Positions 27,001 through 43,399 of a stretch of 43,998 nt of DNA are shown here, one piece after another. The stretch is from the NCBI GenBank assembly GCA_947463915.1, contig CANHVO010000016.1:1-43998 (forward strand). The letters run 5' to 3'. A program made the position numbers and the translations under genes. The notes beneath the pieces are model-generated. The model ran no database searches, had not been told where the DNA came from, and worked only from the letters and a program-made list of their open reading frames with translations. The DNA is from Planctomycetaceae bacterium (GTDB lineage Bacteria; Planctomycetota; Planctomycetia; Pirellulales; Pirellulaceae). Position 1 is the first letter of the stretch, and the number at the start of each line of letters is the position of its first letter.

Positions 27001-27831
27001 CTATTCCAATTTGTTTCGGTGCGCTTTGCGATAGTCGCGAGGTGAACATCGACATTCTTCTTTAAATGCTTCGTTAAATCGACTCAGACTCTGAAAGCCT
27101 GCTTCCATTGCGACGTTTAGAATTGTGTCGTCTGTCGTTACCAATAATCGCTGTGCATGGGAAAGTCGATGCTGGACCACGAAGGCGGTCATTGTTGTTC
27201 CAAATGTTTTCTTAAAAAGACTCATCGCATAATTCGGATGCACTTCATTTGCAGCGGCGATGGATTCAGAAGTTAGCGGCTGCTGGTAGTTCTTTGCGAT
27301 AAAGCATGCAAGCTGGTCCGCGCGTGATAACCCAGGCGGCATAGGAGGGTTTAAAGCCGACGTAATCCGTCCCGACATCCGTAGGAGCCTTGCCCTAACC
27401 TCCAATTGTGCAGCTCGCTCGAAGACTGGCGATTGCGATTTCAAGTCGCCTTCCCACCTAGCGAAAAGGGATGCATCCGCGTCATCAACCACACTGTCGA
27501 TTAATAACTCACCCTGCAATGCTCGATTCACAAACTCGCGACTAATCCCAGCGCGTAGGAATTCAGTCAACGGGATCGTCACGACGAAATAGGGGAATTC
27601 CGTGCCAAAGTCAACTATCTGATGCGGAATCGCGGCCCAAAAAAGACCGAGTTTACCTGCGGATATGGTTGTTCGACTCCCACCGAGTAAGTAAGTCAAC
27701 GAGCCAGATGCAAGCCAGTTCAGCTCGATCTCGTTATGTCGATCCGGTCGCAGCATCAAAGCCGGAGTCCACGCCTCGCACGTGAATCCATACGGTGAAA
27801 ACTCAGGTCTTTTGTCGTCGAACTTCTTCAT
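27001..27831 (-). CDS. AraC-family transcriptional regulator
   Basis: A 276-residue regulator. The N-terminal half resembles the cupin ligand-binding domain of MelR/RhaS-type regulators ('MLRPDRHNEIELNWLASGSLTYLLGG'). The C-terminal 100 residues form the double helix-turn-helix ('LTSESIAAANEVHPNYAMSLFKKTFGTTMTAFVVQHRLSHAQRLL', then 'ILNVAMEAGFQSLSRFNEAFKEECRCSPRDYR'). It is transcribed away from the Sde182/ribose operon with a 124-base shared promoter region, so it is the obvious candidate activator of that operon, probably responding to a sugar. The ligand is unknown. No strong ribosome site is visible. Confidence 0.9.
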   Translation of the reverse strand: MKKFDDKRPEFSPYGFTCEAWTPALMLRPDRHNEIELNWLASGSLTYLLGGSRTTISAGKLGLFWAAIPHQIVDFGTEFPYFVVTIPLTEFLRAGISREFVNRALQGELLIDSVVDDADASLFARWEGDLKSQSPVFERAAQLEVRARLLRMSGRITSALNPPMPPGLSRADQLACFIAKNYQQPLTSESIAAANEVHPNYAMSLFKKTFGTTMTAFVVQHRLSHAQRLLVTTDDTILNVAMEAGFQSLSRFNEAFKEECRCSPRDYRKAHRNKLE

Positions 27832-27955: not shown

Positions 27956-29062
27956 ATGCTTGTCCGGCCTGCCAGAATCTCCAAACCGAGTACCCAAGTG
28001 AAAAATATTGCCGTACGACTTACCTTGCTGACGGCGATCGCGATTTCTGTCGTTGATTGTTGTGCATTCGAAGCCCCAACTGGCATGATTGCCACGAAAC
28101 CTGCCCAGAAGCCACGATTTCGTGTTGTCGTGACAACCGACTTTCCACCCATCGGTGTCGTCAAAGAAGGCAACGTGCCGAATGATCAAAAAAGCGATCC
28201 AGATGATATGCAGTCGATGGTGCGTTTTCTACTTTACGCAAACGAGTTTGACATCGAGGCACTCATCGCTTCGTCTGGAACGTTTGCCAATGTTGCTCGG
28301 AAACAGAATATTTTTGATGTCATTGATCGCTACGCAGAAGTTCATCACAACCTATCAAAGCATGATCCGCAATACCCAAAGCCGGACTACCTCCGGTCAA
28401 TTACCTTTGAGGGGCGAAGTGGAACGTGGGGTAAAAAGGGGACAGACAATATCGGTGAAGGTAAAGATAGTGAAGCATCCAATGCTTTGATTTCGATCGT
28501 TGACAAACCTGATCCGCGTCCAATCTACATTTCGGTATGGGGCGACAGTAGTGTTGTGGCTCAAGCAATCTGGAAAGTTAAAAAGTCACGAAGTGACGCC
28601 GAGTTCGAGCAGTTTATCGGTAAGTTGCGAATCCACCAGATTGCAACCCAGGACGGTACTATTGGCTGGTTGCGAGAACAGTTCCCAAGACTATTCATCA
28701 TTCATTCCGAGAAAACATATTTCGGAATGTTCGGCGCGAATGATGCAATTTCAAATCTTGATTGGGTCAATGAGCACGTTCGTCGCAATCACGGTCCACT
28801 GTGTGACCTGTATCCGAAGGAAGGAGTCGGTTGCACCGGAGTTTGCGAGGGTGACTCGCCCGCGTTCTTATGGCTGGTCAGCGGTAATCGCGGACTTAAC
28901 GATCCAGAGGACCCGACACAAGAAAGCTGGGGCGGTCAATTTAAAAAGAATAGGGGTACGAATCACTTCGTTGATGGTATTGGCGGTGTTAGCATCTCGA
29001 AATGGCGTAAAGATTTTCAACGAGAATTCGCCGAGCGCGCCGACTGGTGCGTTGACAATTAG
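27956..29062 (+). CDS. Sde182/DUF1593 nucleoside-hydrolase-like protein, copy A
   Basis: A 368-residue exported protein with a Sde182 NH-like domain (formerly DUF1593). This domain is related in fold to nucleoside hydrolases and is best known from a cellulose-binding protein of Saccharophagus. An Asp cluster resembling the nucleoside hydrolase calcium site is present: D62 in 'VVVTTDFPP' and D81/D83/D84 in 'SDPDDMQSMVRFLLY'. Further family blocks are 'SVWGDSSVVAQAIWKVK' and 'EGDSPAFLWLV'. It ends 'WRKDFQREFAERADWCVDN' and lacks the C-terminal Ig-like domain of copies B-D. The start is uncertain: ATG 27956, or a GTG at 27998 that gives a cleaner signal peptide. It is the first gene of the operon. 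Confidence 0.85.
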   Translation: MLVRPARISKPSTQVKNIAVRLTLLTAIAISVVDCCAFEAPTGMIATKPAQKPRFRVVVTTDFPPIGVVKEGNVPNDQKSDPDDMQSMVRFLLYANEFDIEALIASSGTFANVARKQNIFDVIDRYAEVHHNLSKHDPQYPKPDYLRSITFEGRSGTWGKKGTDNIGEGKDSEASNALISIVDKPDPRPIYISVWGDSSVVAQAIWKVKKSRSDAEFEQFIGKLRIHQIATQDGTIGWLREQFPRLFIIHSEKTYFGMFGANDAISNLDWVNEHVRRNHGPLCDLYPKEGVGCTGVCEGDSPAFLWLVSGNRGLNDPEDPTQESWGGQFKKNRGTNHFVDGIGGVSISKWRKDFQREFAERADWCVDN

Positions 29063-29144: not shown

Positions 29145-30089
29145 ATGACAAGCCGTAGCCGCATCTGTGTTATCGGGTCCGCTAACGTGGACCTAACCTT
29201 TCGAACTCCGAGATTTCCGCGACCGGGTGAGACGTTGACTGGAAATTCGTTGCATCAATGCATGGGAGGCAAGGGAGCTAACCAGGCGGTCGCCGCTGCG
29301 CGTCTGGGCGCTGATGTCACGTTCATTGCATGTGTCGGCGACGATTCATTTGGCGAGAAAGCGATTCGGCAATATCAGGTAGATGGTATCTGCACTGACT
29401 ATGTACGTCGCGTCGGTGGTCAAACCACAGGAACAGCTGCAATCGTGGTGGATGATAATGCAGAGAACTGCATCATTGTTATCCCGGGTGCAAATGCGCA
29501 GTTATCTAGATCTGACATTCAGCGAGCTGCCAGCGTTATCGAACAAGCCGACGCCATCGTGTGTCAGCTCGAAACCCCTATAGATGCAACTTTAGAAGCA
29601 TTTCGAATTGCGCGCAGGGCGGGCAAACTCACCGTTTTGACTCCTGCTCCAGTAGTTGAATTGCCAGAAGAGTTACTTTGTTTGTGCGATTTGTGTATTC
29701 CAAATCGAACTGAGATTGAAGTGCTAGTCAAGCGTGTAGTCAGTAGCGAACAAGATGCGCATTCAGCAGCCGACCTGCTACGTGCTCGCGGCGTGGGGGC
29801 CGTTGCATTGACGATGGGTGGTCATGGAGCCTTTATCGTCAACGATACCGATGCCATGCATATTCCTGCCATGCGGGTTGAAGCCGTTGATACTACGGGA
29901 GCTGGCGATGCGTTCTCGGCTGCTCTGACCGTCTTTCTCTGCGAAGGATTTTCGCTGCGTGAAGCGGCTACACGGGCCAGCGTAGTTGGCGCGTTGACGG
30001 TGACCCGTATCGGAACATACTCTGCATTCCCTAGTCGTGATAAGTTATTACAAACCATCGCCGCCCCTTCGATGCAGCCTTTTTTGTAA
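29145..30089 (+). CDS. rbsK: Ribokinase (PfkB family)
   Basis: A 314-residue PfkB-type kinase phosphorylating ribose (or a related pentose) at O5. It has 'GGKGANQAVAAARLGA' (41-56), the substrate-binding opening 'VIGSANVDLTF', 'PNRTEIEVL' and the anion-hole motif 'DTTGAGDAFSAAL' with catalytic base D255. All ribokinase landmarks are intact. It lies between Sde182 copies A and B on the same strand with short gaps (82 and 48 bases), so it belongs to the operon rather than standing with the ABC transporter genes. Confidence 0.93.
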   Translation: MTSRSRICVIGSANVDLTFRTPRFPRPGETLTGNSLHQCMGGKGANQAVAAARLGADVTFIACVGDDSFGEKAIRQYQVDGICTDYVRRVGGQTTGTAAIVVDDNAENCIIVIPGANAQLSRSDIQRAASVIEQADAIVCQLETPIDATLEAFRIARRAGKLTVLTPAPVVELPEELLCLCDLCIPNRTEIEVLVKRVVSSEQDAHSAADLLRARGVGAVALTMGGHGAFIVNDTDAMHIPAMRVEAVDTTGAGDAFSAALTVFLCEGFSLREAATRASVVGALTVTRIGTYSAFPSRDKLLQTIAAPSMQPFL

Positions 30090-30137: not shown

Positions 30138-31526
30138 TTGAAAACCAAAATCTTGCAATATGTTGCGTTGTTAGTGTTCGCATGCGTATCTTCTACCGTT
30201 TGCAGCGCTGATGACGCCAAGCCACGCGTGGTCGTGCTCACAGATGTGTCGACATGGGAGACAGATGACAGTGAATCGTTGGTGCGATTGATGGTCCATG
30301 CAGACCTGTTAGAAATCGAAGGAATCGTGTTTACGACTGGCTGGAGTCTAGGTGAAACGCGCGATGAGTTCATTGGGCTCATTCATAAAACCATCGACGC
30401 TTATGAAAAGGATCTTCCAAACCTGCTCAAACGCTCTGAACAAACTGGGCATGTACAGATTGAGTCGCGTCAATCTGTTGGCTATTGGCCTAGTCCAAAG
30501 TATCTCCGCGATCGCACCATGTTTGGTAGCAAGAAGCGTGGTGCTCAACATATTGGGGAGGGGAACGATTCGCCCGGCAGTCGACTCATTATTGATCTTG
30601 TGGATGAAGATGACGATCGACCCCTTTGGGTTAATGTCTGGGGTGGAGGCAACACTATAGCTCAATCGATCTGGCGAATTAAACAAGATCGCAGCGAAGC
30701 GGAACTCAAGAAGTTTTTGGGCAAGCTGCGAGTCTACACCATTACCGACCAAGACCGCGATCAGAAGACTCCGTTCAGCGACAGTGCCCATCAATGGATG
30801 CGACGCGCCTTTGAAAAGGATCTATTCTTCCTCTGGGATGAATGCGCTTGGAAGTTTCAAAATGGTACTGGGCGAAGGAAATGGGATGAATATGAGGAAC
30901 ATATTCAAGGACATGGAAATCTTGGAAATGAATACCCCAAATACAAGTATGGAGTCGAAGGTGATACTCCCGCGTTCTTGCATCTGTTGCCCATTGGTTT
31001 GAATGACCCTATTGTGCCAACCCACGGTGGTTGGGGCGGTTTTTTCGAATGGGGCATCAGCGAAGATAAAGAGACGAAGTGCTTCACGAACTTTGAGAAA
31101 CCTGCATACGATCAGTGTCGCAAATTGGAAGAGCATTTTTATGCAGCAACCTTCAACAACTTCGCGGCACGCATGGACTGGGCGAAGGACGGAACGGGGA
31201 ATCGAAATCCGATCGTCAAGATTGATGAGGACTTGTCTTTAAATATCCTTACGAAGTCCCCGAAGGTCGGCGAACAAGTAACACTCGATGCTTCCGGCTC
31301 ATTCGATCCGGACCACAATAATCTATCGTTTATTTGGTGGGTTCTTTCGGATGCTGGCACCTATAAGCAGGCTGTCGAGATTCGCGGCCAAGACCAGTCC
31401 AAAGCTACATTGGATGTCCCAGTCAATTCAGCGGGCAAAACGATCCATGTCATTTGCGAGGTCACTGATGACGGCTCTCCTAGTTTGACCAGTTACCGCC
31501 GGGTGATCTTCGAACCATGCGAATGA
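30138..31526 (+). CDS. Sde182/DUF1593 protein with C-terminal Ig-like domain, copy B
   Basis: A 462-residue exported protein starting with a TTG. The signal peptide begins right there and ends 'TVCSADD'. The NH-like domain (about 28-355) has D36 in 'VVLTD' and D43/D44 in 'WETDDSESLVRLM', with Glu-Thr where copies A and E have Asp-Pro. It also has 'NVWGGGNTIAQSIWRIK' and 'EGDTPAFLHLLPIGLNDP...HGGWGGFF'. The C-terminal ~100 residues form an Ig-like/Sde182 C-terminal domain ending 'LTSYRRVIFEPCE'. Its 3' third is highly similar at DNA level to the next gene, copy C. Confidence 0.86.
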   Translation: MKTKILQYVALLVFACVSSTVCSADDAKPRVVVLTDVSTWETDDSESLVRLMVHADLLEIEGIVFTTGWSLGETRDEFIGLIHKTIDAYEKDLPNLLKRSEQTGHVQIESRQSVGYWPSPKYLRDRTMFGSKKRGAQHIGEGNDSPGSRLIIDLVDEDDDRPLWVNVWGGGNTIAQSIWRIKQDRSEAELKKFLGKLRVYTITDQDRDQKTPFSDSAHQWMRRAFEKDLFFLWDECAWKFQNGTGRRKWDEYEEHIQGHGNLGNEYPKYKYGVEGDTPAFLHLLPIGLNDPIVPTHGGWGGFFEWGISEDKETKCFTNFEKPAYDQCRKLEEHFYAATFNNFAARMDWAKDGTGNRNPIVKIDEDLSLNILTKSPKVGEQVTLDASGSFDPDHNNLSFIWWVLSDAGTYKQAVEIRGQDQSKATLDVPVNSAGKTIHVICEVTDDGSPSLTSYRRVIFEPCE

Positions 31527-31585
31527 GAACCCGCTGGACGCTGGCCGAGTTGAAAATTGAACTGAAGAAAGACTGGGGATTGGCC

Positions 31586-32983
31586 ATGAAGACACGATTG
31601 GCTTGTTTGCTTGTGGTTATGGTGCTGGGGATGGCGAATGCCGAATCGCCGAAGCCAAGGATTGTGGTGCTTACAGATATAGCGCCGACCAATTTTGAGC
31701 CGGACGATATGGAGTCTTTGGTTCGGTTGCTGGCGCATGCGGATTTGTTTGAGATTGAGGCGTTGGTTGCCACGACGGGGTGGAGCAACACGGGAGGGAA
31801 CGAGCGGATCGACCTGATTGAGGCGGTTGTGGATGCGTATGAGAAGGATCTCCCGAATCTTCGGAAGCGATCGAATCAGACGAAACACTCAGAGAATGAG
31901 TCGCGGCAGGAGATCGGGTATTGGCCGAGCACAGAGTATCTGCAGGCCCGAACGGTGCTCGGAAGCACGAAGATGGGGATGAAGTTTGTTGGTGAGGGGA
32001 ATGATTCGGCGGGGAGCAATTTGATCATCAAGCTGGCGGATGAGGAGGATAGCCGTCCGATTTGGGTTTCGACGTGGGGAGGCGGGAATACGCTTGCCCA
32101 AGCGATCTGGCGGGTGAAGATGGATCGGACTCCGGAACAGTTGAAGGTGTTTCTGCACAAGCTTCGGATTTATACAATTACGGATCAGGATCGGCCGTGG
32201 TCGAAGAATGACGATGTACCTTACGACGTGAGTTCGCATCAGTGGATGCGTAGAGAATTTGAGAAGGACTTGTTGTTTCTATGGGATGAGTGCGCGTGGC
32301 ATTACCAGTGCGACTTTGGCGCGAAGAACTGGGCGGCACATGCGCAGAAAATCCAAGGGCATGGGAAACTTGGGGAATTGTATCCGAAGTATAAGTGGGG
32401 AGTGGAAGGTGACACTCCCGCGTGTCTGCATATGTTGCCTATCGGATTGAATGATCCCAATGTGCCAACACACGGAGGCTGGGGTGGCTATTTTGCCTGG
32501 GGCGTAAGCGAAGACAAGGAAACTTCGTGCTATACGAATTTTGACAAGCATACATTCGAGCAATGCCTCAAGCTGGAAGAGCATTTTTACCCAGCAACCT
32601 TCAACAACTTCGTAGCTCGCATGGACTGGGCGAAAGATGGCACGGGAAATCGAAATCCAATCGTCAAGATTGATGACGATCTGTCATTGAAGATCCTTAC
32701 GAGAGCTCCAAACGTAGGCGAACAAGTTACACTCGATGCATCCGGTTCATCCGATCCAGACCACAACAATCTGACGTTCAAATGGTGGACGCTATCTGCC
32801 GCTGGCACCTACGATCATGCGGTTGAGATTTTCGGTCACGACCAATCCAAAGCCACATTGCACGTGCCACTTGATTCGGCAGGCAAGGTTATTCATGTCA
32901 TTTGCGAGGTCGCTGATGACGGCTCTCCTCGTTTGACCAGTTATCGAAGGGTGGTCTTCGAACCATGCAATTGGCCCCACTAA
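31586..32983 (+). CDS. Sde182/DUF1593 protein with C-terminal Ig-like domain, copy C
   Basis: A 465-residue tandem paralogue of copy B. The ATG at 31586 starts a clean signal peptide ('MKTRLACLLVVMVLGMANA') with TGGGGA upstream. An in-frame ATG at 31517 would overlap copy B. The metal cluster is D31 and E38-P-D40-D41. The WGGGN, EGDTPA and GGWGG blocks and the C-terminal domain ('LTSYRRVVFEPCNW') are intact. From the start to about 32,470 codons end strikingly often in G, whereas the 3' part shares the mixed codon use and much of the sequence of copy B, suggesting a mosaic gene. Confidence 0.86.
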   Translation: MKTRLACLLVVMVLGMANAESPKPRIVVLTDIAPTNFEPDDMESLVRLLAHADLFEIEALVATTGWSNTGGNERIDLIEAVVDAYEKDLPNLRKRSNQTKHSENESRQEIGYWPSTEYLQARTVLGSTKMGMKFVGEGNDSAGSNLIIKLADEEDSRPIWVSTWGGGNTLAQAIWRVKMDRTPEQLKVFLHKLRIYTITDQDRPWSKNDDVPYDVSSHQWMRREFEKDLLFLWDECAWHYQCDFGAKNWAAHAQKIQGHGKLGELYPKYKWGVEGDTPACLHMLPIGLNDPNVPTHGGWGGYFAWGVSEDKETSCYTNFDKHTFEQCLKLEEHFYPATFNNFVARMDWAKDGTGNRNPIVKIDDDLSLKILTRAPNVGEQVTLDASGSSDPDHNNLTFKWWTLSAAGTYDHAVEIFGHDQSKATLHVPLDSAGKVIHVICEVADDGSPRLTSYRRVVFEPCNWPH

Positions 32984-33135: not shown

Positions 33136-34341
33136 ATGACACAATTAATTGAAGACCGACCAGCAACCAAGTTAACTCCAAGCAAGACCACACAGGTTCG
33201 TGCGGTCTGCATGACAGCTCCAGGCCAGACGGAGATGCGTACCTATCCTTACCCGAAGATGGATCACGACTCAGCAATCGTGAAGGTTGACATGTCGGGT
33301 ATCTGTGGAACAGACCGGCATATTTTCTTAGGAGAAGCGACCGAGTTGCGGGGCAAGTCGATCTATCCCTATATCGGTGGCCATGAAGTCATCGCTACGA
33401 TCGAAGAGATCGGTGACAATGCCGCTCGAGTGATGGATTTCGACGGCCAGTTGTTACAACCGGGCGATCGAGTTGCGATAGCGGTTGAAGTGAACTGTGG
33501 CGAATGTTGGTATTGCCGCAATCAATACAACAATAAGACGTGCGAAAACCAACTGCAGGCTTACGGACTTCATCCAAGCGCCGACATCGCTCCTCACGTG
33601 CGAGGTGGTTTCGGTGAGTACATGTTCCTGCGCCCAAAGACTCATCTTTTCAAGATTCCCGAGGAGATGTCGACGGATGTAGCGGTCTTCGTCGAAGAAA
33701 TGGCTGTCGCTTACCATGCATTAGCTCGCGCAAGTGTGCCATTCGCGCCAGTAAACGAAGGCTTTGGCCCAGGCATGTCGGTAGCTGTGCTTGGTAATGG
33801 TCCTCTCGGAATTCTGCATGGCGTTATGGCAGGCATTCAAGGCGCTGGTTTGGCAATCGCAACAGACCTATCCGATTTACGACTCGGCATTGCCAAGAAT
33901 CTGTACGCTGACGTGACCATGAATGCGTCCAAAATCGACATCGAAGAGCGCATTCAGCGAGCAAAAGACTTGACAGAGGGAGTTGGTCCGGACTTGGTAA
34001 TCGAGGCAGCTGGCGAGCCCGAGGCGTTCGTGGAAGCGCTTCGCATGGTTCGCAAAGGAGGAACAGTGATCGAAGTTGGTAATTGGGTTGACTTAGGTAA
34101 GACGGTGGCGATCGACGTGATGCGTCATATCAATTCAAAGAACCTGCATATTCATTCAGTCTTCCATTGCGGAACGAACTGGAAACCTGTGTTGAAGGTT
34201 CTTCAGCAGCAAGCGGACCGATATGATTTCCCCTCTCTGATCACTCATCGATTCAGCCTGGACGAGCTAGTCACAGGATTCGGGACGGTGACCGACTTCA
34301 ACAAGTGCTGCAAGATCGAGGTCATGCCGCACAAACGGTAA
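33136..34341 (+). CDS. Zinc-dependent alcohol/polyol dehydrogenase (MDR family)
   Basis: A 401-residue medium-chain dehydrogenase. Catalytic zinc ligands are C57 ('GICGTD') and H83/E84 ('GGHE'). The structural zinc is held by C121, C124, C127 and C136. The Rossmann motif is 'VLGNGPLGILHG' with an acidic residue after the second strand ('ATDLSD'), favouring NAD. The overall pattern is like sorbitol and threonine dehydrogenases, so it probably oxidises a polyol, sugar or sugar acid. AAAGGA precedes the ATG. Its place between the Sde182 genes and rbsD suggests it handles the imported sugar or its product. Confidence 0.88.
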   Translation: MTQLIEDRPATKLTPSKTTQVRAVCMTAPGQTEMRTYPYPKMDHDSAIVKVDMSGICGTDRHIFLGEATELRGKSIYPYIGGHEVIATIEEIGDNAARVMDFDGQLLQPGDRVAIAVEVNCGECWYCRNQYNNKTCENQLQAYGLHPSADIAPHVRGGFGEYMFLRPKTHLFKIPEEMSTDVAVFVEEMAVAYHALARASVPFAPVNEGFGPGMSVAVLGNGPLGILHGVMAGIQGAGLAIATDLSDLRLGIAKNLYADVTMNASKIDIEERIQRAKDLTEGVGPDLVIEAAGEPEAFVEALRMVRKGGTVIEVGNWVDLGKTVAIDVMRHINSKNLHIHSVFHCGTNWKPVLKVLQQQADRYDFPSLITHRFSLDELVTGFGTVTDFNKCCKIEVMPHKR

Positions 34342-34404: not shown

Positions 34405-34812
34405 ATGAAACGCGGAAGATTGTTGAACAGTGAATTGAGTTATGAGATAAGCCGAATCGGCCACACTGCTTCGATAGTATTATGCGATGCGGGGCTACCG
34501 ATTCCTGCCGAAGTCAAACGTATCGACCTGGCAATTGAAAGTGGTTATCCATCGTTCATTCGGACGTTAGATGTATTGCTTAGTGAAATGCAGGTCGAGG
34601 AAATCATAGTCGCCAGCGAGATACATCAAAGAAACCCAAACATCTATCGTGCGATGATGGATGAATTTAAGAAGCATGGCATGGCACCCGTTGTTACTGA
34701 GGTTTCGCATGATCAATTCAAACTAATGACGAGAGACAGCGAAGCGATAGTGAGGACGGGTGAGTGCACTCCGTATGCGAACGCAATACTTAAGTCCGGT
34801 GTGGTGTTTTAG
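34405..34812 (+). CDS. rbsD: D-ribose pyranase RbsD
   Basis: A 135-residue RbsD/FucU-family mutarotase that interconverts pyranose and furanose forms of ribose so that ribokinase can use it. It has the family start '[29 protein letters not shown]', with the conserved His20 and Asp28. The family ending '[18 protein letters not shown]' is also present. Length is normal. It lies 25 bases ahead of the transporter binding protein gene, the usual company for RbsD. Confidence 0.93.
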
Positions 34813-34837: not shown

Positions 34838-35839
34838 ATGCATCGTTTCAAAGTCAGCACGAACCTTTTGCTTCTTGCAATCTGCCTACTTGCCATTGGC
34901 ATCACCGGCTGTTCTAACTCGTCCTCCACGACAAAGGGTGAGGAATCTAGCAAAGGCAGTATTCCGAAGAAACCCTTGAAAATAGCGGTGATCATATCGA
35001 CTCTCAACAATCCATGGTTTGTGGTTCTTGGTGAGACTGCTCGCGATCGAGCGATTGAACTCGGGTGCGAAGCAACAGTCTTTGACTCGCAAAACGATAC
35101 GGCTAAAGAGGCCGCACACTTTGACAATGTCATAGCCGCAGGATTCGCGGCGATCATCTTTAATCCGACCGATGCCGATGGGTCTATCGCAAATGTGAAG
35201 AGAGCAAAGGAAGCTGGAGTGCCGGTGTTTTGTATCGATCGCGAAATAAACTCGAGTGATGCTGCAACCACTCAACTACTCTCGGATAACTGCTCAGGCT
35301 GTATCGCTCTCGGCAAACATTTCGTTGAGATGGTTGGTGAACAAGGAAAGTATGTGGAATTGCTCGGCTTGGTTGGCGACAATAACACTTGGAACCGCTC
35401 AAAAGGTTTCCATGCCGTGGTTGATCGTTACGAAGGTCTGAAAATGGTGGCTCAACAAAGTGCTGACTTTGATCGCAGCAAAGCGATGGAAGTGATGGAA
35501 TCCATTCTGCAGTCGCATGACGATGTTCGTGCCGTATTTTGTGGAAATGACGCTATGGCGATGGGAGCATACCAAGCTCTGTTAGCTGCCGGCAAGTCGG
35601 ACTCGGTGAAGGTCTTTGGCTATGACGGTTCGGACGATGTGATTCGTTCGATTAGCGAGAAAAAGATTACAGCGACGGTTATGCAGTATCCCAAATTGAT
35701 GGCGACCACTGCTGCTGAATATGCATATGAATATTTAGTAAATGGCAAGAAAGATTTTGAACAGAAGATTCCCGTTAACGTGGACCTGGTAACTCAGCAG
35801 AATATTGCAGAGTTTGCTGGGTTTGGCAAAAAGGAGTAG
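34838..35839 (+). CDS. rbsB: Ribose-type ABC transporter substrate-binding lipoprotein
   Basis: A 333-residue periplasmic binding protein of the sugar (Peripla_BP_4) class. Signal peptide and lipobox 'GITGC' give a lipidated Cys25, followed by a Ser/Thr/Glu-rich linker and then '[21 protein letters not shown]', typical of RbsB. Later blocks are 'FNPTDADGS', 'CIDREI' and '[15 protein letters not shown]', all RbsB-like. AAGGCGGAA before ATG 34838 fixes the start; the frame is open 26 codons upstream. The sugar is inferred to be ribose or another furanose from the rbsD and rbsK neighbours. Confidence 0.92.
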
Positions 35840-35844
35840 CCATT

Positions 35845-36474
35845 TTGGGCAGGCAACGATTCGTTTTAAGCGGACTTCTTGGAATTTTTGCGATTCTATG
35901 CTGGTTCTTTCCGCTATTTCACGTTCGCCAACTCGGTGGAAGTGATGCGAATACCGCGGCAGCCAAGGCCACGAGTGAAGAATCGGAAGCCAATGATCAA
36001 CCTAGTCGGTTAGAAGATTACGCTACGAAGGCGACGGACCTAATGCAGTTGTGGGAAGCCTTCGAGACAGACGCTGCGAAAGCGAAGAAACAATTCGGCC
36101 AGCAAGCGGGACTCGGTGGCTCGGTCTACTTCTGCGTTCGCGGCAGTGGAACTGTCGAGTCAATCGAAAAGGATCGTGTGATGTTAGCAGTTCGGGACGC
36201 CAAACGCCGTGTTTGCTTAGAGCTCGGTATCGTTGTCGATAGCACAGTGCGTGACGCCGTCGGAGTGAAGGCCAGTAAGTTTCCGAATTCACAAGAGTTC
36301 AACGCGTTTTCGTCGGAGTTGAATCGTCAAGTCGAAGATGCTGTTCTTGCTCCCAATCGTGAGCTCATCAAAGTAGGTACCCTAGTCGACTTTGTTGGGT
36401 GCGGGAAGGTCGGTGGTAAATCGGACCTCGATCCCTTGTGCCTCATTCCGATTCAGTTGAAGGTATCCCAGTAG
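35845..36474 (+). CDS. DUF2291 periplasmic protein of sugar ABC operons
   Basis: A 209-residue protein with one N-terminal membrane segment ('FVLSGLLGIFAILCWFFPLF') and a periplasmic domain holding 'GSVYFCVRGSGTVESIEKDRVMLAV', the DUF2291 pattern. DUF2291 genes are regularly found inside ribose-type ABC operons, but their role is not known to me. It starts with TTG, supported by AAGGAG nine bases before and by a five-base gap to the previous stop, which indicates translational coupling. Confidence 0.82.
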   Translation: MGRQRFVLSGLLGIFAILCWFFPLFHVRQLGGSDANTAAAKATSEESEANDQPSRLEDYATKATDLMQLWEAFETDAAKAKKQFGQQAGLGGSVYFCVRGSGTVESIEKDRVMLAVRDAKRRVCLELGIVVDSTVRDAVGVKASKFPNSQEFNAFSSELNRQVEDAVLAPNRELIKVGTLVDFVGCGKVGGKSDLDPLCLIPIQLKVSQ

Positions 36475-36516: not shown

Positions 36517-38058
36517 ATGACTTCAGCCGTTCAACAACTTTTATTAGCAGGCGAAGGAATCTCCAAAAGATATCCTGGAGTCGTTGCGTTAGATCGAGTT
36601 GACTTCACGGTCCACGTCGGCGAGGTCCACGGCTTAATCGGTGAGAACGGTGCAGGCAAATCCACATTGATGAAGATTCTCGCTGGTATCATTCAACCGG
36701 ACGAGGGCGTGATTCGCTTGGCCGGTCAACCGATTCAACTCTCAAGTCCACGTGATGCAAACGATCGAGGGATCGCACTGGTGCATCAGGAACTCAATCT
36801 CGTACCCTATCTGACAGTAGCTGAGAATATCTTTCTCGGCCGTGAAATAGTATCAAAAGCAGGTCTCATTCGAGCGAATGAACAGGAACGCAGTTGTCGC
36901 CAATTGCTTGCAGAACTCGACCCTTCGATTGATCCTCGCTCCGAGGTTCACCGTCTTCGGGTCGGGCAACAGCAAGTCGTTGAGATTGCAAAAGCGATCA
37001 ACTGCAAGGCTCGAGTTATCTTCATGGATGAACCGACTTCAGCGATTAGTGATACAGAGGTCGCCGCTCTCTTTCAGTTGATTAGTTCGCTGCGAAACTC
37101 TGGCGTGTCGATTGTCTATGTCTCTCACAAGCTAGATGAACTGCTCAAAATCACGGACCGAATCACCGTGCTGCGCGATGGCAAGTTTGTTCAGACGGTT
37201 CAAACTTCTCAGGCAGATCGCAACACGATCGTGCGATTGATGGTCGGCCGCGAGCTAAGCGATCTTTACGTCCATTCGCCTCCGCAGCCGCAGCGTTGCG
37301 AGCGTTTACGTGTCGACTCGCTAACGCTGAATCGGAAGAACACGGAGCGACCTGTCGTCGATAACTTTTCGTTCGAGGCCTATGGTGGCGAAGTTCTTGG
37401 TATCTTCGGTTTGATGGGTAGTGGCCGAACGGAACTGCTTGAAACAGTTTTTGGCCTGCACGCTCAGCAAATGTCTGGCGAGATCACGATTGATGGTGTA
37501 CCCAAAACCATCGACTCGCCCGCCGAAGCCATACGCTTAGGACTGGGGCTGGTTCCCGAGGATCGTAAACGCCAGGGCCTGATCCTATCGATGAGCGTTG
37601 AACAGAATATCAGCTTGTCAAATCTGCAAGACATGGAAAGCAGTGGCATTCTCAGCCATCATCGCGAGCGCCAGCATGCTGAAAGCTACGTGCAACAGTT
37701 TGCGATTAAGACACCAGCAGTTACGCAACCCGTTCGAACACTCAGCGGTGGCAATCAGCAGAAAGTTGTTCTGTCGAAAGTGCTGTCTAGTAAGCCTCGC
37801 GTTCTGATGCTTGACGAGCCTACTCGCGGAATTGACGTGAGCGCCAAGCGTGAGATCTATGCACTGATTGATCGACTTAAAAGAGAAGGTATGGCGGTTA
37901 TTGTTGTCTCATCAGAGTTGCCAGAACTGCTGGGAATCGCCGATCGCATCCTCGTGATGTGCGAAGGTTGCAAGACCGCAGAGTTCGATCGAAGAGACGC
38001 GAGCGAGGAATTGCTCATGCAGGCTGCAGTTCCCAAAGAGGCAGCAATTACAACCTAG
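36517..38058 (+). CDS. rbsA: Ribose-type ABC transporter ATP-binding protein (two NBDs)
   Basis: A 513-residue fused double ATPase of the sugar importer class. NBD1 has Walker A 'GENGAGKST' (42-50), signature 'LRVGQQQ' and Walker B 'VIFMDEPTS'. NBD2 has a degenerate Walker A 'GLMGSGRTEL', signature 'LSGGNQQ' and Walker B 'VLMLDEPTRGID'. The degenerate second Walker A is normal for RbsA, MglA and AraG. It powers import with the RbsC permease encoded next. Confidence 0.95.
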   Translation: MTSAVQQLLLAGEGISKRYPGVVALDRVDFTVHVGEVHGLIGENGAGKSTLMKILAGIIQPDEGVIRLAGQPIQLSSPRDANDRGIALVHQELNLVPYLTVAENIFLGREIVSKAGLIRANEQERSCRQLLAELDPSIDPRSEVHRLRVGQQQVVEIAKAINCKARVIFMDEPTSAISDTEVAALFQLISSLRNSGVSIVYVSHKLDELLKITDRITVLRDGKFVQTVQTSQADRNTIVRLMVGRELSDLYVHSPPQPQRCERLRVDSLTLNRKNTERPVVDNFSFEAYGGEVLGIFGLMGSGRTELLETVFGLHAQQMSGEITIDGVPKTIDSPAEAIRLGLGLVPEDRKRQGLILSMSVEQNISLSNLQDMESSGILSHHRERQHAESYVQQFAIKTPAVTQPVRTLSGGNQQKVVLSKVLSSKPRVLMLDEPTRGIDVSAKREIYALIDRLKREGMAVIVVSSELPELLGIADRILVMCEGCKTAEFDRRDASEELLMQAAVPKEAAITT

Positions 38059-38134
38059 GTGAAAGAAAACAACCCACCGCTTGACGCATTCAACACAAAT
38101 ACAAGTTAAACAGAAGCTTATCCTCGAAATTTAT

Positions 38135-39112
38135 ATGCCTCATAAACAAAAAGTTCTTCACTACGCCAGCCGCTTTCAATCGCTGCTGGTGCTTGTCCTG
38201 ATGATCGTCGCGATGAGCCTTCTGTCAGATCGCTTTATGACGACTGCGAATGGCTGGAACATTTTGCGGCAGATCTCGGTGAATGTCTGCTTAGCCATCG
38301 GGATGACAATGGTAATCGTATCGGGCGGCATCGATCTCTCAGTCGGCTCGGTACTGGCATTCTCGGGCGCGATTACCGCCGGCCTGATCAAGAATCCCAT
38401 CCCAATTCCTTGGTTTGGCTTAGAGCTTCAGTTCACTGTCTGGGGAGCGATAGTAGCTGGACTGAGTGTCGGTACGTTTCTTGGGTGGTTCAATGGCCTC
38501 ATGATCACCAGATTGAAGATCCCGCCATTCGTAGCAACGTTAGGCATGCTGAGTATTGCACGGGGGCTTACGATGCTTTGGACCAAGGGATTTCCAATTA
38601 CTGGCCTGGGAGACGATTTTGCAGTTTTGGGAACACGAACCTATGCAGGTGTTCCTGCGCCGGTTTGGATCGCAGGGATACTTGTCGGCTTCTTCGTTTT
38701 GATTACCAAGAAGACACGTCTCGGTCGTTACATCTATGCAATTGGTGGTAACGAGATCACTGCAAAGCTATCGGGCCTAAACGTTAGTGGAATCAAGTTG
38801 ACTGTGTACACGTTAGCTGGGGCGCTTTCAGCAGTTGCCGGGCTGATCATGACCTCAAGATTAGACTCTGCTCAACCGAACGCTGGCACTGGATATGAAC
38901 TTGATTGCATCGCAGCGGTTGTGATCGGTGGCACATCGCTGTCTGGGGGACGCGGATCTATTTGGGGGACTGTTATCGGCTGCCTCATCATCGGCGTGTT
39001 GAACAGTGGACTCGTGCTTTTGAATGTTTCTCCTTTCTGGCAACAAGTCGTTAAGGGAGCCGTCATTCTCGTGGCAGTCGCCATCGACCGAAGGCGAGAG
39101 TCCAATGAGTAG
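38135..39112 (+). CDS. rbsC: Ribose-type ABC transporter permease
   Basis: A permease of about 325 residues in the BPD_transp_2 family, with 8-10 hydrophobic segments. The family blocks 'MTMVIVSGGIDLSVGSVLAFSGA' and 'GYELDCIAAVVIGGTSLSGGRGSIWGTVIGC' are clear. ATG 38135 ('MPHKQKVL') is preferred; a TTG at 38081 is in frame but adds nothing recognisable. It completes an RbsB-A-C importer. Confidence 0.93.
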   Translation: MPHKQKVLHYASRFQSLLVLVLMIVAMSLLSDRFMTTANGWNILRQISVNVCLAIGMTMVIVSGGIDLSVGSVLAFSGAITAGLIKNPIPIPWFGLELQFTVWGAIVAGLSVGTFLGWFNGLMITRLKIPPFVATLGMLSIARGLTMLWTKGFPITGLGDDFAVLGTRTYAGVPAPVWIAGILVGFFVLITKKTRLGRYIYAIGGNEITAKLSGLNVSGIKLTVYTLAGALSAVAGLIMTSRLDSAQPNAGTGYELDCIAAVVIGGTSLSGGRGSIWGTVIGCLIIGVLNSGLVLLNVSPFWQQVVKGAVILVAVAIDRRRESNE

Positions 39113-39228: not shown

Positions 39229-39488
39229 ATGATGAAAACAGATACTTTACTTTCCAAAGCGATGTTGCCGGCCCTTTGCGTGTATCAGTACTCAACGCTG
39301 GCGACAGCTCAGGAGCAGCCGGAACCGAAACCTAGGGAGATCGCTACGACGGACGGTGAAGTCGATGATCGAAGTTCGATGATTCGCTTGCTGCTCTACG
39401 CATGCGACTTGTGATTTGTGAGGTGACCGACAACGGCAAGCCAAATCTGACTCATTATCGGCGTGTTATTATCGAGCCCAATAGATAG
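39229..39488 (+). pseudogene. Sde182/DUF1593 remnant with internal deletion
   Basis: The 5' piece encodes a signal peptide and the domain start 'IATTDGEVDDRSSMIRLLLYACD', nearly identical to the D-copy at 'VTTDGEVDDRSSMVRFLLYACD'. It then stops. In a different frame the DNA continues immediately as 'ICEVTDNGKPNLTHYRRVIIEPNR*', the C-terminal end of the family (compare 'ICEVTDDGSPSLTSYRRVIFEPCE' in copy B). Nearly the whole middle, more than 1 kb, is missing, with a frameshift at about 39412. A ribosome site and ATG remain. Confidence 0.88.
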
Positions 39489-39560: not shown

Positions 39561-42020
39561 ATGAATCCGAATCTCTTAATTGCTCAAACTACCATTACTG
39601 TTTTTGCATTGTTACTGAATTCATTGAATGTAGACGCTCAAGACTCTTCTGTCGCGACGAGTATAGGACTAAAGCAACATTCGAATGGAAACTTTTTGGT
39701 CGGCGCCGGTGTCTCGGACGAGATAGCAATTCAGCAAAAAGACTGGCCGCTATTGACACAAAATTTCGAAATAGTGACTCCCGAAAATTGCATGAAGCCT
39801 CAAGCGATTCAGGCCGTCGAGGGAGTGTTTCAGTTCAGACAGTGCGACGCATTTGTACAGTTCGCCGAAGACAAAAAACTGCAGATAGTTGGGCATTGCT
39901 TAGTTTGGGCGAAGGATGACCGTACGCCCGAATGGTGGCTCATGGAAAACGAAAGACCGACAGGCAAAGCCCTGCTGCTCAAACGTTTGAAAGATCACAT
40001 CGACGCGGTCGCAGGGCGATATGGCGATCGTATCGCCGCATGGGATGTTGTAAACGAGGCTTTGTCAGATGACGAATCCGACTATTTACGAGATTCCATT
40101 TGGACCCGTGTCACGGGCGAGGAGTTCATTGTTCGCGCATTTCAGTATGCACGCGAAAACGCTCCCAAGGCGCTGCTCATCTACAACGACTACAACTGCG
40201 ACAACGATGGCAAATGTGATAAGTTGATACGATTAATCAAGTCCTTAAAGTCGCAAGATGCGCCCGTTGACGCGGTAGGCTTACAAGGACATTACGAACT
40301 AGACTCCATTCCATACGAGGGACTTGAATCACTGCTGTTGGCTATGCGCAAGCTTCGCATTAAAGTAATAATCTCGGAACTGGATATTGATGTTGTACCG
40401 CGCGGACGATGGTGGGCAGACGGCAATAAATACCGTGAGGAATTGAAGTCATTCGACCCTTATAGCGACGGTTGCCCGAGCGAGATACTGGCTCGACAAG
40501 CGGATCAGTACGCGCAACTCTTTGATCTGTTCTGTAAGTACGATGATGTAATACAGCGTGTTTCATTCTGGAATCTTCACGATGGACAAAGTTGGTTGAA
40601 TTACTTTCCTTGGAATCGCGTGAACCACCCTTTACTATTCGACCGAAACAGCAATCCTAAGCCAGCATATACTTCCGTCGTCACCACGCTAGATCGATTC
40701 CAGAAGACTAAGATTAAGGAGGCAGGTGAAATAGCTAAAATTCACGCAAATCCACGCGTAATTGTCACGACCGATGGTGAAGTGGATGATCGCAGCTCCA
40801 TGGTTCGCTTTTTGCTTTACGCATGTGACTTCGACGTAGCGGGTATCGTTCAAGTTAATTCAAAATTCCAGAAGCAGGGGCACAGCGACAAAAAGTGGAT
40901 TGATGCTCAGTTGGATGCCTACGAGTCAGTCCTGCCGAATCTGCGAAAACACAATCCAAATTTCCCAGACTCCGCGCAGTTGCGAAGTGTAATGCGAGTC
41001 GGCAACGAGACCGAAGCCGATTTATGGATCGCTCCGCCTGACATGCAGACAAAGGACACGCAGGGTGCCCAATTGATTATCGACACACTTCTCGACAATG
41101 ACCCACGCCCAGTTCATGTTCTCTCCTGGGGAGGAGCCAATACGACGGCGTCTGCACTGTGGAAACTGAAGACAGAGTATTCAAAGGAAAAATTTGATTA
41201 CGCGGTGTCACGCATTCGTATCTATTGCATTTGGTATCAGGATGGCGGCGGCGAATGGATTCAGAAAAACATTTCCGGCGCCTACATCTATGAAGCGTAC
41301 AAATGGGACAACGTCTGGGACTACGAGAGCTACGATCATGCACGAAAGCAAGGCAAACTCAGTGCCAACCCGCCAACTGAACAAGAAGTCATGAAGCCAG
41401 CATGGTTTAACGAGCATATTAAGAATGGGCACGGGCCGCTTGGTGCAATGACACCTCAGAAATACATCAGTGAAGGTGACACGCCATCGTTTTTTAACCT
41501 GGTCAACAACGGACTCGCCGCTGACAAAGATTATACGCTCGGAGGTTGGGGCGGGCGTGGAGCGTTTGATGACATGGCTTTTCCTAACCACATCTCGGAT
41601 AAAACGATTACCGACGATGGCGATTCACACAAAATGTTTTGGCGCTGGGTTCTGCCGGCGCAAAACGATTTTGCCGCACGCATGGACTGGTGCGTGAAAG
41701 AGTTCAAAGAGGCCAATCATGCACCAGTTGCCAAAGTGATAGGCGAACTCCATCGGGATGTACAACCAGGCGAATCCGTGACCCTTCAAGCCACCGCCAG
41801 TGATCCTGATGGCAATAAGCTCACCTTTAAGTGGTGGCAATATTCCGATGCGGATTCCGCTGTCGCAACCGTGGACATTGCGAACGCCGAGTCGCTCGAT
41901 AGTGCAAGCTTCATTGTGCCCAACGAGTCCAAGAAACAGGTCCACATCATTTTAGAAGTAACCGACAATGGCACACCAGCGCTCGTCGGCTATCAACCAG
42001 TCATTTGCAATATCAAGTAA
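39561..42020 (+). CDS. GH10 xylanase fused to Sde182/DUF1593 (copy D)
   Basis: An 819-residue exported fusion. Residues 1-27 are a signal peptide. Residues ~40-385 are a GH10 domain with acid/base E166 ('WDVVNEAL') and nucleophile E273 ('ISELDIDV'), plus the substrate His in 'GHCLVW'. GH10 enzymes cleave beta-1,4-xylan with retention. Residues ~398-715 are a Sde182 NH-like domain with D405 and D409/D410 ('TTDGEVDDRSS') and 'SWGGANTTASALWKLK'. Residues ~720-819 form the C-terminal Ig-like domain. Both catalytic halves appear intact. The combination ties the Sde182 family to xylan-like substrates. It starts 72 bases after the remnant gene. Confidence 0.9.
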   Translation: MNPNLLIAQTTITVFALLLNSLNVDAQDSSVATSIGLKQHSNGNFLVGAGVSDEIAIQQKDWPLLTQNFEIVTPENCMKPQAIQAVEGVFQFRQCDAFVQFAEDKKLQIVGHCLVWAKDDRTPEWWLMENERPTGKALLLKRLKDHIDAVAGRYGDRIAAWDVVNEALSDDESDYLRDSIWTRVTGEEFIVRAFQYARENAPKALLIYNDYNCDNDGKCDKLIRLIKSLKSQDAPVDAVGLQGHYELDSIPYEGLESLLLAMRKLRIKVIISELDIDVVPRGRWWADGNKYREELKSFDPYSDGCPSEILARQADQYAQLFDLFCKYDDVIQRVSFWNLHDGQSWLNYFPWNRVNHPLLFDRNSNPKPAYTSVVTTLDRFQKTKIKEAGEIAKIHANPRVIVTTDGEVDDRSSMVRFLLYACDFDVAGIVQVNSKFQKQGHSDKKWIDAQLDAYESVLPNLRKHNPNFPDSAQLRSVMRVGNETEADLWIAPPDMQTKDTQGAQLIIDTLLDNDPRPVHVLSWGGANTTASALWKLKTEYSKEKFDYAVSRIRIYCIWYQDGGGEWIQKNISGAYIYEAYKWDNVWDYESYDHARKQGKLSANPPTEQEVMKPAWFNEHIKNGHGPLGAMTPQKYISEGDTPSFFNLVNNGLAADKDYTLGGWGGRGAFDDMAFPNHISDKTITDDGDSHKMFWRWVLPAQNDFAARMDWCVKEFKEANHAPVAKVIGELHRDVQPGESVTLQATASDPDGNKLTFKWWQYSDADSAVATVDIANAESLDSASFIVPNESKKQVHIILEVTDNGTPALVGYQPVICNIK

Positions 42021-42043
42021 CAATGCTTCGCTCGTTTAATCTC

Positions 42044-43399
42044 ATGAAAACAAGAACTCCAATGGACGATCGACCTTCGTTTTTTATTTGCCGCACCTGT
42101 CTGCAATGGACTGCATTGGGATTGTTAAGCTACGTGTTAGTCGCGACACAAGCGTTCGCAGTTGCAGATGATGGCGCAATCACAGGAGTGAGGCATCGCA
42201 TCTTGGTATCAACGGACATTGGTGGAACAGATCCCGATGACGTTCAGTCAATGGTTCATCTGCTGGTTTATGCCGAAAGCTTTGACATCGAGGGATTGGT
42301 CTCGTCACCTTACGGTCCAGGCCGCAAGGAGCATATTTTAAAAGTCATCGATGCCTACGAGCGTGATTTACCCAAACTTCGCGCGCACTCTGCTTCTGCA
42401 CTGAAACAATACCCAACAGCGGACGCGCTTCGCGCTCTTTCAAAGCAAGGAGCACTTGATGCTCCGGGTGCTGCCGGTATTGGAGTTGCAACTGAAGGAT
42501 CCAATTGGATCATTCAGTGTGCCAAGCGGGACGACCTTCGGCCCCTTAATGTGCTGGTCTGGGGTGGGATTGAAGATTTGGCCCAGGCTCTTCACGATGC
42601 ACCGGAAATCTTACCAAAGCTGCGAGTCTTTTTTATCGGCGGGCCGAATAAAAAATGGAGCGTGGATGCCTACAACTATGTGGAACAAAACCATCCTAAA
42701 CTTTGGATGATTGAGTCCAACGCGACCTACCGTGGCTGGTTCACTGGCGGTAATCAGAAAGGGGAATGGAACAACAAAGAGTTTGTGACCAAACATGTCG
42801 CAGAACATGGAGCTTTGGGCAACGCATTCTTCGAAGCCAAGGCAGATATCAAAATGGGCGATACGCCATCGCTCGGTAGACTCCTTCGTGGCGTGTCTGA
42901 TGATCCCACGAAGCCTGGATGGGGAGGCAACTATGTGCCGATCTGGGACGATCGCAAAACGATTTTTGATCGATTGACGGTCGAAGCGGATCAGGTCGAA
43001 GTGTTCGGCGTCACCGAGTTCGCATTGCCCATCCCCGAAGGTTACAGGTCGAAGAATTCAACAACAATGATTTTCAACAAAGGCGTTCCTTCCTCTGCTG
43101 GAGTCATTGATGGGAATGTACTTCGTTTCCGATTTTCGCCACGCGACGCATTCGTTTGGTCGTATGTCATCGAAAGCGATTACGCACATCTCGATGGCCA
43201 ATCCGGAAAATTCACCGCAGTACCACCGCCCATTACTCGTACAAGCAAACGATCCGTTGTGCATCCGAACTGGTGGATCGACGATCCAAATCCCGCTCTA
43301 GCCGAAGGAGTTCATCCTGGCGCGAAAAGCGTCAGTCAATGGCGTGAGGATTACTTACGAAACTTCGCCGAACGATTGAAGCGATGCTGCTCGAATTAA
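42044..43399 (+). CDS. Sde182/DUF1593 protein, copy E
   Basis: A 451-residue exported Sde182 NH-like protein. The metal cluster is D58 in 'VSTDIGG' and D63/D65/D66 ('TDPDDVQSM'), closest to copy A. 'VLVWGGIEDLAQAL' and 'MGDTPSLGRLLRG' mark the family. It ends 'WREDYLRNFAERLKRCCSN' like copy A, without the Ig-like C-terminus of B-D. A segment near 325-430 ('EFALPIPEGYRSKN...HPNWWIDDP') is not in copy A and may be an extra small domain. The start is ambiguous (42023, 42044 or 42062; none has a ribosome site). It is the last gene of the run. Confidence 0.83.
   Translation: MKTRTPMDDRPSFFICRTCLQWTALGLLSYVLVATQAFAVADDGAITGVRHRILVSTDIGGTDPDDVQSMVHLLVYAESFDIEGLVSSPYGPGRKEHILKVIDAYERDLPKLRAHSASALKQYPTADALRALSKQGALDAPGAAGIGVATEGSNWIIQCAKRDDLRPLNVLVWGGIEDLAQALHDAPEILPKLRVFFIGGPNKKWSVDAYNYVEQNHPKLWMIESNATYRGWFTGGNQKGEWNNKEFVTKHVAEHGALGNAFFEAKADIKMGDTPSLGRLLRGVSDDPTKPGWGGNYVPIWDDRKTIFDRLTVEADQVEVFGVTEFALPIPEGYRSKNSTTMIFNKGVPSSAGVIDGNVLRFRFSPRDAFVWSYVIESDYAHLDGQSGKFTAVPPPITRTSKRSVVHPNWWIDDPNPALAEGVHPGAKSVSQWREDYLRNFAERLKRCCSN

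Follow-up and report, generated by a model that had tools for sequence, protein, structure and literature searches.

A xylanase joined to a nucleoside-hydrolase-like domain

What could be the role of a nucleoside-hydrolase-like domain carried by a xylanase? This question is raised by a single gene of the window (the whole stretch of DNA analysed, 43,998 nucleotides). The domain concerned, PF07632 (DUF1593), has a solved structure, and we found no reaction for the family in the literature searched, as the initial annotation had supposed. That annotation left two possible roles, the removal of a furanosyl decoration from xylan or the anchoring of the enzyme to cellulose or xylan.

The gene is an uninterrupted reading frame on the forward strand (39561..42020, 819 codons). 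Its 819-aa product was analyzed with Pfam, and three domains scored far above their cut-offs: GH10 (residues 37-375), PF07632 (399-666) and Sde0182_C (740-817). The match to PF00331 (39669..40685, forward strand; E=2e-85, 287 bits) covers profile positions 2-310 of 311 and thus corresponds to a full GH10 domain. The catalytic glutamate pair is intact, with the acid/base E166 (codon 40056) within WDVVNEA and the nucleophile E273 (codon 40377) within SELDID, both residues being found where they had been placed from the sequence. In a PDB comparison, the closest solved structures of this half are endoxylanases, e.g. 1uqy, and we propose that it would cut a backbone of the beta-1,4-xylan type. The second domain (40755..41558, forward strand; Sde182_NH-like, E=2e-71) reaches 241.5 bits for a gathering cut-off of 26.8, and everything beyond GH10 is clearly related to Sde_0182 (PDB 2yhg). 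The C-terminus, previously described as Ig-like, is the known Sde0182 C-terminal domain (41778..42011, forward strand; PF21027, E=4e-23). By eye, the N-terminus (...VDA|Q) looks like the signal peptide noted in the initial annotation.

It had been suggested that the frame could result from a sequencing fusion of two genes. However, the linker between GH10 and PF07632 is 23 residues long and contains no second signal peptide, whereas a stand-alone homologue, 73% identical and found in a Verrucomicrobiota locus (L051), possesses its own. The joining is therefore a true fusion.

The gap of ~450 bp ahead of the fusion contains the relic of a stand-alone PF07632 gene, a decayed sixth copy (39229..39488, forward strand), detected by blastx and blastn against the paralogues. 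It retains a 5' end with a signal peptide and the DGEVDDRSSM motif of the fused domain, followed by an internal deletion and by a C-terminal end in another frame. Its 5' part matches the fused domain, at 81% across 27 aa and 83% across 65 bp, and its 3' end matches the paralogue NH2 (78% over 23 aa), which gives it a chimeric look with a 3' end of the NH2/NH3 kind. The cluster thus formerly contained the now fused type as a gene of its own, and the fusion may derive from a duplication of that gene.

None of the 110 other PF07632-containing frames surveyed carries a GH10 domain; since the survey covered sampled genomes, mainly of three phyla, together with plasmids, absence elsewhere does not mean that the fusion is unique. 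A tblastn search of plasmids with the fusion gave no record spanning both halves, and a limited search of the literature turned up no description of the architecture, in line with the earlier impression that it is not a described one. A 766-aa frame of another genome (L032, G059) was considered as a second fusion and rejected: more than 300 residues at its N-terminus come from a spurious frame that overlaps a neighbouring gene of NH5 type, and its PF07632 domain is preceded by a signal peptide.

The PF07632 domain and its conserved aspartates

An AlphaFold2 model of residues 394-819 (pLDDT 80, pTM 0.84) matches 2yhg with a Z score of 41.3 at 37% identity. Its PF07632 part also superimposes with nucleoside hydrolases and with XopQ effectors, which are related to them (Z 14.7-18.8 over ~230 residues); the nucleoside hydrolases give Z values of 17-19, and some of the structures matched carry bound ribose. 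On the basis of this model, the PF07632 half is predicted to have a nucleoside hydrolase fold. The nucleoside hydrolase profile PF01156 gave no match to the fusion protein at E 0.01, and hhalign of PF07632 against IU_nuc_hydro aligned the N-terminal third only (prob 65%).

In nucleoside hydrolases, a Ca2+ coordinates the 2- and 3-hydroxyls of ribose. By homology, D405, D409, D410 and D640 would form the corresponding Ca2+/furanose site of the fusion. These residues are the Asp cluster of the initial annotation, and they are kept in 95-99% of 110 PF07632 domains. As hhalign reached only the N-terminal third, D640 is assigned as the C-terminal metal-binding Asp from its motif position. The catalytic His-Asp motif of nucleoside hydrolases appears as Gly-Asp in the present domain, according to a sequence comparison and not to a solved mapping; this counts against a catalytic role.

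Sde_0182 itself comes from Saccharophagus degradans, and its structure 2yhg is that of Hehemann et al. 2011, cited in PMC8910321. In the latter paper the protein is presented as inactive on nucleosides and as retaining Ca2+; it is located after carbohydrate-binding domains, and the hypothesis put forward is that of a module interacting with furanose. Such a Ca2+-keeping, nucleoside-inactive domain is compatible with an O-furanosidase as well as with a binding module, which sequence alone cannot separate. One could thus assume that the PF07632 half is a non-catalytic, CBM-like module that binds furanose and anchors the xylanase, the ribose operon described below being an independent neighbour. 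Besides the properties of Sde_0182, the Pfam name of PF07632, cellulose-binding, would agree with this assumption, but the near-total conservation of the Asp set argues against it, as does the genomic context.

A cluster of five PF07632 genes and a ribose-type transporter

A single 16-kb cluster contains the one GH10 encoded by the genome together with each of its five PF07632 domains. At one end, an AraC-family regulator is transcribed divergently (27001..27831, reverse strand); its orthologues elsewhere stand beside PF07632 and/or rbs genes. From this regulator to the contig end, all on the forward strand, one finds NH1, a PF07632 protein by Pfam (27956..29062), a ribokinase RbsK of the PfkB family (29145..30089; TIGR02152, 357 bits, cut-off 299.7), NH2 (30138..31526) and NH3 (31517..32983), both matching PF07632 and Sde0182_C in Pfam, a zinc alcohol dehydrogenase (33136..34341) whose orthologue adjoins rbs genes in L135, and the D-ribose pyranase RbsD (34405..34812; NF008761, 175 bits, cut-off 93). 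These are followed by an RbsB-type solute-binding protein (34838..35839; 60% identical to 2fn8), a DUF2291 protein related to Thermotoga maritima TM0957 (35845..36474; PF10054; 2f4i, E=3e-5), an RbsA-type sugar ABC ATPase (36517..38058) and an RbsC-type permease (38081..39112). Then come the relic, the fusion and NH5, a stand-alone PF07632 protein (42005..43399; PF07632, E=4e-58), and the contig ends 600 bases further. Rfam and tRNA scans gave no match. A serine recombinase (Resolvase/Recombinase, 23562-25544), a possible edge of an acquired region, is located ~1.5 kb before the regulator, but the GC content is flat across the 16-kb cluster, which does not favour the idea of a mobile island.

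The cluster thus brings together a complete rbs set, RbsK, RbsD, RbsB, RbsA and RbsC. RbsK and RbsD pass the NCBI cut-offs. RbsB, RbsA and RbsC do not reach the strict equivalog cut-offs, which are based on E. coli, and were recognised by family and closest relatives, so that the label of ribose rests on the binding pocket and on the neighbouring genes. In the RbsB of the cluster, which is 60% identical to that of T. maritima, ten out of ten ribose-contact residues are kept, as listed for the latter in PMC2630998.

A nucleoside-hydrolase fold alongside a ribose operon could suggest that the PF07632 proteins are extracellular hydrolases of nucleosides or nucleotide-sugars scavenging ribose, the link with GH10 being incidental; indeed, an IU_nuc_hydro gene and an rbs operon share a contig in another genome (G035). 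We regard this as very improbable in view of the inactivity of Sde_0182 on nucleosides reported in PMC8910321, of the fusion of the family to polysaccharide enzymes and of a separate ordinary nucleoside hydrolase encoded by the genome.

Recurrence in three phyla

The paralogue types of the cluster recur, with the same regulator and/or transporter, in Verrucomicrobiota and Bacteroidota. In Verrucomicrobiota, L051 associates an AraC gene and the same types of PF07632 genes with RbsB-DUF2291-RbsA-RbsC and an NH5 that is truncated, and in L158 the same four transport genes directly precede two PF07632 genes, the first of them of NH5 type. In Bacteroidota, L138 contains a PF07632 gene divergent from a regulator-like gene, an isomerase, the transketolase genes TK1 and TK2, RbsB, DUF2291, RbsA, RbsC and an FGGY kinase; in L053, an AraC gene occurs with five PF07632 genes and with a GH10 encoded separately. 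Orthologues of the regulator (43-53%) adjoin PF07632 genes in L051, L053, L143 and L146, and in L135 an rbs operon without PF07632, so that the loci sharing it have PF07632 only, rbs only or both. Of 60 relatives, only G035 and G059 possess an RbsB of the cluster type (61-67% identical), and both have PF07632 genes. Most of the PF07632 genes surveyed do not adjoin rbs genes, which weighs against the scavenging system proposed below. In a tree of 110 PF07632 domains, the NH1, NH2/NH3 and fused types fall into separate deep clades, each of which also has members from L051 and/or L053; NH5 was left out of this reading, and its relatives come from a separate comparison.

Paralogues of distant lineages therefore share one cluster and are found together again in three phyla. 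This is hardly expected of a module that would merely anchor a xylanase, and neither are secreted stand-alone copies devoid of a catalytic partner or the interleaving of PF07632 genes with uptake genes. The anchoring to cellulose or xylan proposed initially loses ground, because it leaves the five paralogues and the transporter unexplained, and we consider the binding-module explanation unlikely. The other proposal, the removal of a furanosyl group, gains support from the conserved Asp cluster of the Ca2+ site, the nucleoside-hydrolase fold and the five paralogues within a pentose-uptake operon. It is thus rather probable, in our opinion, that the PF07632 proteins of the cluster are catalytic furanosidases.

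Partners suggesting pectin as much as xylan

The partners of PF07632 in other proteins give some indication about the polymer. In L041 (8335-10698), an NH5-type domain is fused to a pectate lyase (PF09492), and the counterparts of this pair are adjacent genes in L045, from a genome (G024) of the same genus as the source of the GH10 fusion. A DUF5060 protein, with no PDB relative and no match to apiosidase (PF13204), is fused to PF07632 in L053, and a DUF5060 protein is encoded nearby in L032. A 2093-aa protein unites PF07632 with GH95, GH2 and malectin domains (L160:9292-15570). Other cases are a GDSL esterase (L087), tandem PF07632 copies (L051, L084) and a planctomycete protein with IU_nuc_hydro and PF07632 domains (L086:8481-10877). 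On plasmids, a DUF1593 gene of Selenomonas ruminantium (L178:9393-10901) belongs to a gene run with an alpha-L-rhamnosidase, a GH1 and a beta-glucoside PTS, which recalls the use of plant phenolic glycosides, and another from Catenovulum (L182:9884-11239) lies amid three GH115 genes.

Altogether, these associations suggest cell-wall material of plant type, with pectin no less likely than xylan. The part of the initial proposal that placed the decoration on xylan is not established: elsewhere, PF07632 is found with pectate lyase, GH95/GH2 and a DUF5060 protein, and no ribose- or apiose-bearing xylan was reported in the literature searched.

Ribose or apiose

With five PF07632 members tied to a xylanase and to a recognisable pentose transporter, ribofuranosides and apiofuranosides become the main candidates as substrates. 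The same enzymatic logic could apply specifically to D-apiose released from RG-II or apiogalacturonan, RbsK, RbsD and the dehydrogenase providing an alternative apiose route. The partners described above would be in favour of this possibility. Moreover, L051 and L138, linked to PF07632, and L136, unlinked, carry an isomerase, a split transketolase and an FGGY kinase that display 54-56%, 44-54%, 39-45% and 37-41% identity with those of a Klebsiella operon. Operons of this make-up are present in Klebsiella, Rahnella and Sodalis. A Klebsiella pneumoniae record (L175:301-11596), linear, 11.6 kb long and filed as a plasmid, consists mostly of an apiose-type RbsB-DUF2291-RbsAC-transketolase-isomerase-FGGY set; it has no annotated replication gene and is possibly a piece of chromosome. 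E. coli SE15 also has the transketolase/kinase/RbsB/DUF2291 part of the set, within a cluster that is reported to serve D-apiose, strains possessing the cluster having been shown to grow on this sugar (PMC13001218). Because of this homology, the linked loci elsewhere would point to apiose.

In Bacteroidota (395 genomes, PF07632 in 33), the isomerase at >=70% identity occurs in five genomes and PF07632 in 5/5 of them (p=3e-6), and over all 19 isomerase genomes PF07632 occurs in 8/19 (p=4e-5), p-values that ignore phylogeny and, for the first, a 70% split chosen after seeing the matches. A link of the apiose module with PF07632 throughout Planctomycetota was considered and dropped, their co-occurrence there being not significant.

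In the source genome (G000), the apiose-type isomerase gave no match at E 1e-60, and a ribokinase and a ribose pyranase above cut-off are present, which would point to ribose. Apiose forms no pyranose, and the RbsB of the cluster belongs with the ribose-type protein of T. maritima and not with those of the enterobacterial apiose clusters. We therefore find it improbable that D-apiose is the specific sugar of the system. On the other hand, Rhizobium etli RHE_PF00037 (4ry0/5ibq) has reportedly been solved with both ribose and apiose, and a binding protein of this superfamily may therefore not discriminate between them. L-arabinose was not favoured, given the ribokinase and RbsD of the cluster and the lack of any araBAD-like set among the genes seen. 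If PF07632 is catalytic, ribose would have an even chance of being the sugar, apiose a smaller but appreciable one, and the remainder would go to another pentose such as L-arabinose.

A proposed pentofuranose-scavenging system

Our preferred hypothesis, which we hold with about equal belief and doubt, is that the fusion is secreted and works as a two-headed enzyme in a locus for scavenging pentofuranoses. The GH10 half would cut the backbone. In the PF07632 half, a Ca2+ held by Asp residues would bind a terminal pentofuranose by its cis-2,3-diol, in the manner of nucleoside hydrolases, and the O-glycosidic bond of this sugar would be hydrolysed, so that the fusion would couple backbone cutting to sugar release. 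The five PF07632 proteins could handle different linkages. The RbsB-type protein would then bind the freed pentose and RbsA/RbsC would import it; in the source genome, RbsD and ribokinase would most likely process it as D-ribose. The architecture, the predicted fold, the conserved Asp site, the clustering, the type of transporter and the recurrence in three phyla come from the computations themselves, whereas the catalysis by PF07632, the O-glycoside substrate, the identity of the sugar and its place on a xylan-like polymer are inferred. A bolder and rather doubtful extension is that PF07632 would be a glycoside hydrolase family of its own, comprising Ca2+-dependent ribo-/apiofuranosidases with the fold of nucleoside hydrolases. 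These would attack cell-wall O-glycosides and, in three phyla or more, be encoded as sets of several paralogues along with a pentose uptake system devoted to them. Under this extension, some xylan-like polymer would also carry such a furanose and be the target of the GH10 fusion. The clustering makes the function of this poorly understood family directly testable.

Comparison with known systems

Like Sde_0182 (2yhg), the fusion combines PF07632 with Sde0182_C and an Asp cluster at the Ca2+ site, but it carries GH10 in place of carbohydrate-binding domains. With GH10 endo-xylanases such as 1uqy it shares the full domain and both catalytic glutamates, the attachment of PF07632 being its own and unseen in the other PF07632 proteins surveyed. 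The PF07632 half resembles nucleoside hydrolases (IU_nuc_hydro, PF01156) by its predicted fold and by the D-x3-DD motif; it belongs, however, to a separate Pfam family, is secreted and has Gly-Asp instead of His-Asp. D-apiose catabolic clusters were reportedly described by Carter et al. in 2018. Those of PMC13001218 are similar to L051 and L138 in their homologous isomerase, split transketolase and FGGY kinase with RbsB-DUF2291-RbsAC, whereas the source cluster displays a ribokinase, RbsD and a dehydrogenase instead, and a binding protein of a different clade. The latter is closer to the ribose transporter of T. maritima (TM0957/TM0958), with which the source cluster shares its type of RbsB, all the ribose contacts and the DUF2291 partner.
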